Part shown: one piece after another, positions 26,428 to 28,857 of the stretch | How the letters are laid out: the number at the start of each line of letters is the position of its first letter | Position numbering within the stretch: position 1 is the stretch's first letter | DNA from: Anaerococcus sp. mt242 | GTDB taxonomy: Bacteria > Bacillota > Clostridia > Tissierellales > Peptoniphilaceae | Reading direction: 5' to 3' | Assembly (NCBI RefSeq): GCF_016798225.1 | Contig: NZ_JAEUYX010000001.1 | Coordinates: forward strand, 1-64,000 | Length of the DNA stretch: 64,000 nt | Position numbers and translations under genes: made by a program | The notes under the pieces: model-generated | Told to the model about the DNA's origin: nothing | Databases searched by the model: none | The model's input: only the letters and a program-made list of their open reading frames with translations

Positions 26428-27129
26428 TTATATTGAATTTAAAATTAAAACCATAAGTGGCATTAAAATAACTGTCACAATTCCAGCTACGGCTATGGAT
26501 AAGCCGGCCATGGCTCCTTGAACATTACCCATATCGCGGGCTTTTGTTGTACCTAGGGCGTGGGCAGCTGTTCCAAGGCCTATACCTTGGGCAACTGGAT
26601 TGTAAATTTTAAACACTTTTATAATTATAGGTGCGATTATTATACCAATAATACCACGAATAATTACTGCTATTGCAGCAAGGGCAGCAATACCTCCGTA
26701 TTCTTCGGAAAGACCTACGGCTATGGCAGTTGTTACTGATTCAGGAAGCATGGTGATAATCATCATATCATCCACACCCATAACTTTTGAAAGTAGGGCG
26801 GTAACAAGCATTGAAACAAAGCTTCCAACAAAAATACCAATCATAATCGCAGCAAAATTTTTCTTTAATATATGTATGTTATCATAAAGACTTACCATTA
26901 AGGCTACTGTTGCAGGGCCTATAAAAAATGATATTAGCGACCCTCCTAAGTTATAATCTTGATAAGAAATTCCAGCGACAGATAGGATAATGGATATTAC
27001 AATTATTGAAACTAAAAGTGGATTTAGGATAGATCTTAGAATACCGTTATGTATTTTGTTTGTTAATTTTTTTGATAATTGGAATATAACAAATGATAAG
27101 ACAATACCAAAATATGCATTACTAAACAT
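26428..27129 (-). CDS. lrgB: LrgB family membrane protein
   Basis: A 233-residue membrane protein with about seven helices. L-P-E-S-V-T-T-A-I-A near 120 and A-A-H-A-L-G-T-x-x-A near 190 are the LrgB/CidB/YohK motifs. LrgAB-type proteins influence murein hydrolase activity, and in several bacteria act as pyruvate or glycolate transporters. The minus-strand ATG at 27129 has AAGGAGC upstream; an in-frame start nine codons earlier lies inside lrgA and was rejected. The coding regions overlap by eight bases. Confidence 0.95.
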   Translation of the reverse strand: MFSNAYFGIVLSFVIFQLSKKLTNKIHNGILRSILNPLLVSIIVISIILSVAGISYQDYNLGGSLISFFIGPATVALMVSLYDNIHILKKNFAAIMIGIFVGSFVSMLVTALLSKVMGVDDMMIITMLPESVTTAIAVGLSEEYGGIAALAAIAVIIRGIIGIIIAPIIIKVFKIYNPVAQGIGLGTAAHALGTTKARDMGNVQGAMAGLSIAVAGIVTVILMPLMVLILNSI

Positions 27130-27475
27130 GTTTGCTCCTTTTTTGTACAAATTCAACTACAATCATAGTTACTGCCATTGCAACAGTACAAGCTATTATG
27201 GTAACTACAAACATAGCAACAAAATTTTGGGTAAATAAATCAAAGTTTTCGATGATACCAACCCCAACAGGTACAAATAAAAAGCTCATATTATCTAAAA
27301 TTACATTTGAAGCTCTTCTTACATCATCAGTTTTTATTTTCTTTGTGACAAATAAAATAAATAGTATCGCCATACCGTAGATTGTATCAGGAATAGGTAA
27401 TGGGATAAGATACTTTAGAATGCTGCCAATGAGTAAACAAGCGCATAGGATTACAAATTCTTTTAAGATTTTCAT
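27122..27475 (-). CDS. lrgA: LrgA/CidA family membrane protein
   Basis: A 117-residue holin-like membrane protein with four helices. P-L-P-I-P-x-T-I-Y-G-M near 30 and F-L-F-V-P-V-G-V-G near 68 are family motifs. It forms a unit with LrgB, and a role in pyruvate uptake or autolysis control is known for the family. GAGGAG (minus strand, 27480-27485) is just before the ATG. A TTG 12 bases earlier would lie over the ribosome site, so I excluded it. No LytSR-type two-component pair is adjacent. Confidence 0.93.
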   Translation of the reverse strand: MKILKEFVILCACLLIGSILKYLIPLPIPDTIYGMAILFILFVTKKIKTDDVRRASNVILDNMSFLFVPVGVGIIENFDLFTQNFVAMFVVTIIACTVAMAVTMIVVEFVQKRSKHV

Positions 27476-27550
27476 TATTCTCCTCAAATTCTTTCTATAT
27501 ATAATATAGTTTCTATTATAATTTAAATAAAATATTTTACAAATTTTTAT

Positions 27551-27578
27551 TTGACATAAGCTAATTAGCCGGTATATT
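27551..27578 (+). promoter_or_regulatory. S10 operon promoter P1
   Basis: A perfect TTGACA (27551-27556), 16 bases, then TATATT (27573-27578). It would give an untranslated leader of about 270 bases before rpsJ. Confidence 0.65.
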
Positions 27579-27660
27579 AATGAAACGTTGCAAAAGAAAT
27601 GCTGGAAAACTCAGGTTTATAGAAGCTATTTAGCAATATTTATAAATTTATATAAAATAT

Positions 27661-27710
27661 TGTAAAATGTTTATTTTACACTTGATTTTATGGTGTTTTT
27701 ATTGTATTAT
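27661..27710 (+). promoter_or_regulatory. S10 operon promoter P2 with an upstream inverted repeat
   Basis: TTGATT (27682-27687), 17 bases, TATTAT (27705-27710). Directly upstream, TGTAAAAT (27661-27668) and ATTTTACA (27673-27680) form a perfect 8-bp inverted repeat that could be an operator or a P1 attenuating hairpin. P2 gives a leader of about 140 bases. Confidence 0.6.
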
Positions 27711-27716
27711 TATATG

Positions 27717-27855
27717 GTGCTTTGAAGCAAGATGTTGCTTGTGACTTAGGCCAAAATCACAAGGGAACTTTTGCCTAGCAAGTTTAGAAATCATTCTAAG
27801 CGGTTTCCACACATATCAAACGCCCGGAGGCGTGGTAAAGAAAGAGAGAGGAAAA
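27717..27855 (+). ncRNA. structured leader of the S10 operon with a predicted pseudoknot
   Basis: The 5' untranslated region before rpsJ is dense in complementarity. Seen: AAGCAA-gatg-TTGCTT (27725-27740); CTTGTGA (27738-27744) with TCACAAG (27757-27763); the loop of that hairpin, TAGGCcAAAA (27747-27756), with downstream TTTTGCCTA (27769-27777), an H-type pseudoknot; TTAGAA-atca-TTCTAA (27784-27799); ACGCC-cgga-GGCGT (27819-27832) just before the ribosome site. The arrangement suggests autogenous control by a ribosomal protein of the operon; the identity is unknown. I do not match it to a known leader family. Confidence 0.55.
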
Positions 27856-28167
27856 ATGGCTAATCAACAAAAAATCAGAATTAGACTAAGAGCTTACGAT
27901 CATGAAGTAATCGATAGCTCAGCAGAAAAAATCGTAGAAGCGGTTAAAAGAAGCGGAGCAGAAGTATCTGGACCAATTCCACTTCCAACAGAAGTAGAAA
28001 AAATTACAATTTTAAGAGCGGTTCACAAATACAAAGACTCTAGAGAACAGTTTGAACAAAGAACACACAAAAGATTAATCGATATCTTAGGACCAAATGC
28101 TAAAACACTAGATGCACTTAAGAAGTTAAACTTACCTGCAGGTGTTGATATCGAAATTAAGTTATAA
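27856..28167 (+). CDS. rpsJ: 30S ribosomal protein S10
   Basis: A 103-residue S10, the usual length, starting [16 protein letters not shown]. It binds the 3' domain of 16S rRNA in the 30S head and is also NusE in antitermination. It opens the S10-spc-alpha cluster. The in-frame GTG at 27832 sits in a hairpin with no proper ribosome site; GAGAGAGGA supports the ATG used. Confidence 0.98.
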
Positions 28168-28221
28168 TAACTGTAATTAGAATGATTGGATAATCAATCC
28201 GCTGTAATTAAGGAGGTACTC

Positions 28222-28857
28222 ATGAAGAGTATATTTACAACAAAAGTAGGCATGACTCAAGTCATCGATGAAGATGGAGTTATCACTCCAGTTACTGTTC
28301 TAAAAGCTGATGAAAATGTAGTTGTACAAATTAAAACAGATGAAACAGATGGTTACAACGCAGTACAAATCGGTTATATGGACAAAAAAGAAAAAAATGT
28401 TAAAAAACCTATCAAAGGACATTTTGACAAAGCAGGCGCATCTTACAAAAGATATTTAAAAGAAGTTAACTACGGAAATGACCCGATCGACCTAGTAGTT
28501 GGTGATAAAGTAGCGGTAGACATCTTTGAAGAAGGCGAAATCGTAGATGTTGTTGCAACAAGCAAGGGTAAAGGTACCCAAGGTGCTATCAAAAGATGGA
28601 ACTATGGTAGAGGTCCACAATCTCACGGTTCTAAATCTCACAGAGTAGCAGGTGCTCGTGCAGCAGGTTCAGATCCAGCAAGAGTATTCAAAGGTAGAAA
28701 AGGCTCAGGAAAAATGGGAAATGAAAGAGTTACAATCCAAAATTTACAAGTAGTTAAAGTAAATACAGAAGACTCTTACATCCTAGTTAAAGGTGCGGTT
28801 CCAGGACCTAAAGGCGGACTTGTTCAAATTAAACAAGCAGTCAAAGGCCAAAACTAA
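28222..28857 (+). CDS. rplC: 50S ribosomal protein L3
   Basis: A 211-residue L3 with K-V-G-M-T-Q near residue 8 and G-S-K-S-H-R-V-A-G near 135, the loop that reaches the peptidyl transferase centre and holds the glutamine methylated in some bacteria. One of the earliest assembly proteins of the large subunit. AAGGAGG supports ATG 28222 over an in-frame start 36 bases earlier, which would add a non-homologous stretch. Confidence 0.98.
   Translation: MKSIFTTKVGMTQVIDEDGVITPVTVLKADENVVVQIKTDETDGYNAVQIGYMDKKEKNVKKPIKGHFDKAGASYKRYLKEVNYGNDPIDLVVGDKVAVDIFEEGEIVDVVATSKGKGTQGAIKRWNYGRGPQSHGSKSHRVAGARAAGSDPARVFKGRKGSGKMGNERVTIQNLQVVKVNTEDSYILVKGAVPGPKGGLVQIKQAVKGQN

Follow-up and report, generated by a model that had tools for sequence, protein, structure and literature searches.

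A divergent Firmicutes-type S10 operon leader in Anaerococcus sp. mt242 and a hairpin module that may have moved among S10 leaders

The DNA ahead of rpsJ in Anaerococcus sp. mt242 raises the question of which structure the S10 operon transcript forms before its first gene, and whether that structure regulates the operon. An earlier note on this DNA had placed a candidate autoregulatory pseudoknot there, in a layout different from that of the Escherichia coli leader and possibly a distinct ligand site. In the parts of the literature consulted, control of the E. coli S10 operon by L4 is described as transcriptional plus translational (PMC10931766, in part), S10 r-leaders in Firmicutes, with numerous examples from Clostridia, are described as fundamentally the same as an established motif (PMC7247131, in part), and an rpsJ motif is reported in the Peptostreptococcaceae (PMC11109978, in part). 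Positions below are those of the window, the whole stretch of 64,000 nucleotides that was analysed.

Locus and predicted transcript

The gene order after rpsJ is rplC, rplD (which encodes L4), rplW, and the remaining S10 cluster (Pfam L3, L4, L23). The rpsJ of the window was recovered in all 31 genomes of the genus and in 126 of 130 genomes of the family. Leaders were taken from 111 of these 126 rpsJ-bearing family genomes, giving 112 loci, two of which (L030 and L111) come from one and the same genome. An lrgA-lrgB pair in divergent orientation (26428-27487; Pfam LrgA, LrgB) precedes the S10 operon. The elements flanking the leader are as follows.

27682-27687 and 27705-27710, + strand: predicted promoter, -35 TTGATT and -10 TATTAT with a 17-bp spacer, 9/12 matches
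27845-27851, + strand: Shine-Dalgarno-like AGAGAGG, assigned by sequence, 4 nt before the AUG
27856-28167, + strand: rpsJ (S10), open reading frame with Pfam S10, first gene 3' of the leader

Transcription is predicted to start near 27717, one base before the outermost helix of the leader (P0, below). The stretch scanned holds 6 promoter-like sites, compared to 3.9 in shuffles. All of the 29 aligned upstream regions have T at both -12 and -7 and A at both -11 and -8; the automatic choice of the best -10 element fell at the aligned place in 25 and elsewhere in L007, L016, L022 and L037. Transcripts that start downstream of 27763, a case the earlier note had considered, are without support, since promoter-like sequence common to the 29 leaders lies just upstream, with a predicted start at about 27717. 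A second strong promoter-like match (TTGACA-16-TATATT, 27551-27578, 11/12) is found ~140 nt upstream of the leader, and a start from it would give a longer leader. A candidate upstream open reading frame of five codons, opened by the ATG at 27732, was rejected: by eye, the ATG is gone in those leaders that have GAGG at this place.

A conserved leader core

The folding energy of the single sequence is unremarkable. The segment 27700-27870 is not more stable than its shuffles (z -0.32), 66 of 200 of which equal or surpass it, so the energy provides no argument either way and comparison must decide. The 5' hairpin of the lowest-energy fold, AAGCAA/UUGCUU, is not preserved in congeners, as seen, for example, in L014 (AAGUGA/UUGCUU). 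The genus-clade alignment consists of 29 distinct leaders: 26 belong to the genus, and two neighbouring genera supply the other three. Five duplicate rows (L010, L012, L025, L026 and L029) were left out, and the mean column identity is 77%. The features of the core are listed here, with pairing and changes on both sides of a pair counted over the 29 leaders.

27717-27808, + strand: S10 r-leader core (P0, P1, P2, P3), found with model R2 and a sub-threshold RF03136 match (see below)
27718-27721 / 27777-27780, + strand: P0 closing helix, 99.1% of cells paired, both-sides changes in 1 of 4 pairs
27727-27732 (GCAAGA) / 27769-27774 (UUUUGC), + strand: P1 helix, 98.3% of cells paired, both-sides changes in 3 of 6 pairs
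27738-27744 / 27757-27763, + strand: P2 hairpin, 97.0% of cells paired, both-sides changes in 5 of 7 pairs
27748-27753, + strand: P2 tip motif AGGCCA, assigned by sequence
27782-27789 / 27794-27801, + strand: P3 hairpin, 96.9% of cells paired, both-sides changes in 5 of 8 pairs

RNAalifold, run without hints, gave P0, P1, P2 and P3 together with two additional pairs that lie between P1 and P2, plus three from a further hairpin, P4. Taken together, P0-P3 pair in 97.6% of 720 cells; both partners change in 14 of 25 pairs, and 111 cells are doubly changed. On none of the five measures does any of 500 shuffles reach these values, and when the partners are displaced by 1-3 columns only 33-51% of cells pair. 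The variants of P1 illustrate these changes: GCAAGA/UUUUGC in the window, GUGAGA/UUUCAC in L014, GUGGGA/UUCCAC in L023 and GUUGGA/UCCGAC in L003. In 72 leaders of other genera, in an alignment fitted to the structure, P1 pairs in 97.7% of cells with both-sides changes in 5 of 6 pairs, and P2 (95.6%) and P3 (90.5%) show many double changes, with pairing of P0 falling to 65.5% outside the genus. The P2 tip reads [AG]GCC[AG] in all 29 genus-clade leaders, and a similar, non-identical pattern occurs in 5 of 77 other family leaders.

The central hairpin of the earlier note is borne out as P2, in which CUUGUGA (27738-27744) pairs with UCACAAG (27757-27763), and two more of its hairpins, P3 (27782-27801) and the one before the ribosome site (P4, 27820-27833), are present as well. 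P0 and P1, absent from that note, both carry compensatory changes in the 29 leaders.

The proposed pseudoknot

27747-27756 / 27769-27777, + strand: proposed pseudoknot helix, not supported; 64.5% of cells paired, doubly changed pairs not in excess

The nine-pair complementarity on which the pseudoknot had been proposed is present as letters, UAGG/C/CAAAA at 27747-27756 facing UUUUGCCUA at 27769-27777 with one bulge; the pseudoknot itself is not supported. Over the 29 leaders its helix pairs in 64.5% of 242 cells, compared to 61.2% in shuffles, and individual pairs are broken in up to 20 leaders. Changes on both sides occur in 3 of 9 pairs, where the shuffled mean is 3.2 and 400 of 500 shuffles reach that count. 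Compensatory change in relatives had been the criterion of the earlier note; in these 29 leaders the pseudoknot shows no excess of it, and P1, the helix that excludes the pseudoknot, has such changes. P1 and the pseudoknot are mutually exclusive because both use 27769-27774. A second helix kept by compensatory changes, as expected of an H-type pseudoknot regulator, was not found.

It might be proposed that the pseudoknot is a ligand-bound or alternative state of a switch, with the 3' strand of P1 taken up by the P2 tip. Nine pairs can indeed form in the window, pairing persists in 64.5% of cells over the 29 leaders, and three of five measures stand above most shuffles: the cells paired are equalled by 1 of 500 shuffles, the doubly changed cells by 6 and the covariation score by 27. 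Relatedness alone can produce such values without structure, and the same columns overlap the covarying P1 and P2. Doubly changed pairs are not in excess, and single pairs of the pseudoknot are lost in as many as 20 leaders while P1 and P2 are kept; we regard such a switch as highly improbable. The covariance search in leaders of relatives that the earlier note had suggested gave covariation for P0-P3 and no excess of doubly changed pairs for the pseudoknot.

Relationship to the S10-Clostridia leader

No Rfam family matches the window at Rfam's cut-offs. With relaxed limits, RF03136 (S10-Clostridia) aligns with 27714-27803; the score is 15.3 bits (E 1.8 in a search of all 4227 families), below the curated cut-off of 35.1 bits, and for this reason we term the leader a divergent homologue and not a formal RF03136 hit. 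A congener (L027, 35.7 bits) and a neighbour (L042, 36.6 bits) score over the cut-off. When 17 clade loci were scanned with all of Rfam, RF03136 matched seven at E<=1, two of them over the cut-off. Across the family, 40 of 130 genomes (nine of the genus) have a match at E<=0.001 and 11 (two of the genus) exceed the cut-off; 22 of the 31 genus genomes, the window's own among them, have no match at E<=0.001. In the order, 102 of 199 genomes match and 73 are over the cut-off. Bacillus subtilis and Lactococcus lactis were positive among the 14 control genomes in both the family and order searches.

Two covariance models were built from the leaders themselves. R1, made from the 29 genus-clade leaders including that of the window, was applied to 79 of the 112 family loci and recovers 72 of these 79 other family loci (L037 and L042 are among the model's own rows); it also recovers named Bacillota loci, 63 out of 79 at E<=1, although many of these matches are weak. 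R2 was made from the 72 leaders found with R1 and holds no sequence of the window's genus; its rows having been gathered with R1, which has the window among its 29, it is independent in sequence and not in gathering. Searched against the 64 kb, R2 gives a single match at E<=10, namely 27717-27808 (61.9 bits, E 1.6e-12), and it recovers all 31 genus loci. A model from other genera thus finds the leader of the window, and finds it in the 5' leader of rpsJ, directly upstream of 27856.

The likenesses to RF03136 are the position upstream of rpsJ, a P1-P2 hairpin with a GUUGC...AAGG internal loop followed by P3, and homology that extends over 27714-27803; P1, P2 and P3 are conserved with covariation. 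The differences are the score under the cut-off, a P4 located 3' of the region matched by the 81-position model, a clade-specific GCC in the P2 tip, and a P0 that is mainly a genus-level feature. In its place upstream of rpsJ the leader is also like the rpsJ motif RLC-47-1 (Clostridioides difficile, Peptostreptococcaceae; PMC11109978, in part), a leader candidate upstream of that gene in Clostridia. Judged by alignment and pairing, the leader is a divergent homologue of the RF03136 S10 leader. Its layout is that of the S10 leader described for Firmicutes and Clostridia (RF03136; PMC7247131, in part), and the suggestion of a distinct ligand site is not supported. The conserved P0-P3, the position before rpsJ and the RF03136 homology together uphold the broader suggestion, that the S10 operon has a structured and very probably autoregulatory leader.

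A hairpin module downstream of the core

27818-27833, stem 27820-27824 / 27829-27833, + strand: P4 module, ACRCCCGG hairpin, 3' of the end of the Rfam match

The RF03136 match covers all 81 model positions and ends at P3, with P4 beyond it. P4 (27820-27833) carries AAACGCCCGG, the single match to AAACRCCCGG in the 64 kb, and in the window's genus it adjoins the ribosome site. Its end lies 22 nt before the rpsJ start codon in the window and 19-22 nt before it in the clade. The 18-nt P4 segments form 4-6 pairs in all 29 genus-clade leaders, in a register that is not always equal. Of 67 distinct segments from outside the genus clade, 31 have C-U in place of the C-G pair at the module's second position, in the register tested. 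P4 is kept mainly in sequence, with little compensatory change, and it is therefore probably recognized by sequence as well as by shape.

A loose form of the module, ACNC[ACT][ACG]GG within 200 nt 5' of the S10 match, is present in 109 of 112 family loci; in these loci the backwards motif occurs in 3 and the reverse complement in 2, and block-shuffled leaders give a rate of 0.049. In the 72 family loci placed by R1, the module lies downstream of the core in 70, inside it in none, and is absent from two. The 63 named loci are divided: 26 have it within the core and 28 downstream of it, nine at neither place and none at both, so that none of the 135 placed loci has it twice. The named loci are the best 80 among the matches listed, of which 79 were searched (L113 was left out, its contig being of equal length to that of L036), and are not a balanced sample; 16 of the 79 have no R1 match and stand outside the placement counts, although five of these carry a leader by eye (L116, L134, L145, L158 and L162).

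Where the module is inside the core, it lies within the P2 tip, which reads ACACCCGGCCGCUUUGCCAUGGCAAGGUGU or similar (L162). The 26 loci concerned bear the names of genera that we take to belong to the class Bacilli, and in them 15-22 nt separate the end of the core from the S10 match. The 28 loci with a downstream module are clostridial, Tissierellia-type or unclassed Bacillota metagenome records, and the nine without a module include two Bacilli (L148 and L179).

We read these placements as one module at two addresses in S10 leaders, the alternative being two unrelated hairpins that converged on ACRCCMGG. Tentatively, and at somewhat less than even chances, the ACRCCMGG hairpin may be a portable, probably ligand-contacting module that moved in evolution, located at the P2 tip in Bacilli and 3' of P3 in Clostridia and Tissierellia, with the window as a clear downstream case. 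We found no description of the module or of a permuted S10 leader in the literature text consulted in part, the figures and supplements of PMC7247131 and PMC11109978 aside; the apparently relocated module is worth a specialist's look.

Comparison with 23S rRNA

The Bacilli tip resembles a segment of E. coli 23S rRNA, CCCGG-N7-GCCAUGG. Neither this pattern nor a 23S landmark pattern is matched in the window's genome; the assembly probably lacks the 23S gene, so the negative result for the segment says little. In nine loci of relatives and other Firmicutes that cover a portion of a 23S gene, the corresponding place reads AAACCGGGUGAUCUAUCCAUGG or similar, and the L162 tip has its best match at that place in L200 (14/22) and L204 (13/22). 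This candidate mimic was rejected, since 8 of 60 shuffled tips also reach 14/22, and the other five leader segments fare no better: for the six segments compared to the nine loci, the best identities are matched by 8-34 of 60 shuffles. The resemblance to the 23S of relatives above chance that an rRNA-mimicking r-leader should have was not found.

Probable mechanism and alternatives

The comparison gives a nested P0-P1-P2, then P3, then the ACRCCCGG hairpin P4, and the structure is most likely the autogenous leader of rpsJ-rplC-rplD. We hold with good confidence that it is a divergent Firmicutes-type S10 r-leader acting autogenously, presumably with L4 as its ligand and translation as its target. 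Transcription would start near 27717. An operon protein, most likely L4, the product of the third gene, would bind the leader when it exceeds its rRNA sites; the bound core and P4, at the upstream edge of the ribosome landing zone, would block initiation of rpsJ translation, and the genes behind rpsJ would be repressed by coupling.

The choice of L4 as ligand is inferred. By description only, the locus is like the E. coli leader under L4 control in having the same operon with rplD and a presumed autogenous role (PMC10931766, in part). That the ligand is instead another operon product (S10, L3 or L23), or that the leader has no r-protein ligand, seems rather doubtful to us. Ligand guesses for multi-gene operons are described as uncertain (PMC7247131, in part), but the regulator described for the S10 operon is L4 (PMC10931766, in part; E. 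coli work, by its references), and nothing in the present data favours another protein.

A translational mode is suggested by a P4 that ends 22 nt before the AUG, by the absence of any terminator-like site in 27400-28250 of the window, and by the lack of a U-run in the clade; here the leader would differ from the E. coli one, in which control is transcriptional plus translational (PMC10931766, in part). The leader might instead attenuate transcription, which is one part of how L4 controls the S10 operon (PMC10931766, in part), and outside the genus clade 58 of the 75 leaders that bear the module do have a run of six or more U in the 60 nt that precede it. No such run is found in any of the 35 genus-clade loci (34 genomes), of which 33 have none and 2 have five U, and the two relatives scanned, L081 and L064, have no sense-strand terminator-like site between core and gene. 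With the lack of terminator-like site and U-run in window and clade, an attenuator appears very unlikely. By eye, GGGUUAU ... AUAACCC encloses the module in several leaders outside the clade, L081 and L064 among them.

Within translational control, the invariant GCC of the P2 tip could pair with the start region of rpsJ, AUGGC, and hide the start codon directly. The lowest-energy fold joins 27749-27753 to 27857-27861, and within the alignment of 29 leaders AUGGC is as invariant as the tip motif. AUGGC is common for coding reasons. Since neither side varies, covariation gives no information, the single leader with AUGGCA (L022) retains AGCC, and by pattern the tip motif is absent from 72 of 77 other family leaders, so that we consider this pairing quite unlikely. 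Our preferred reading remains translational control by the ligand-bound core and P4.

Implications

For the genus, a false pseudoknot is removed and the structure of the leader corrected, and leaders mostly missed by the Rfam cut-off are now placed in a described r-leader class. If the module has moved, the same binding surface would be assembled in S10 leaders with the strands in a different order, an instance of natural domain permutation in r-leaders; and if it serves the same ligand from both positions, these leaders would constitute a natural permutation experiment on how an r-protein recognizes mRNA.
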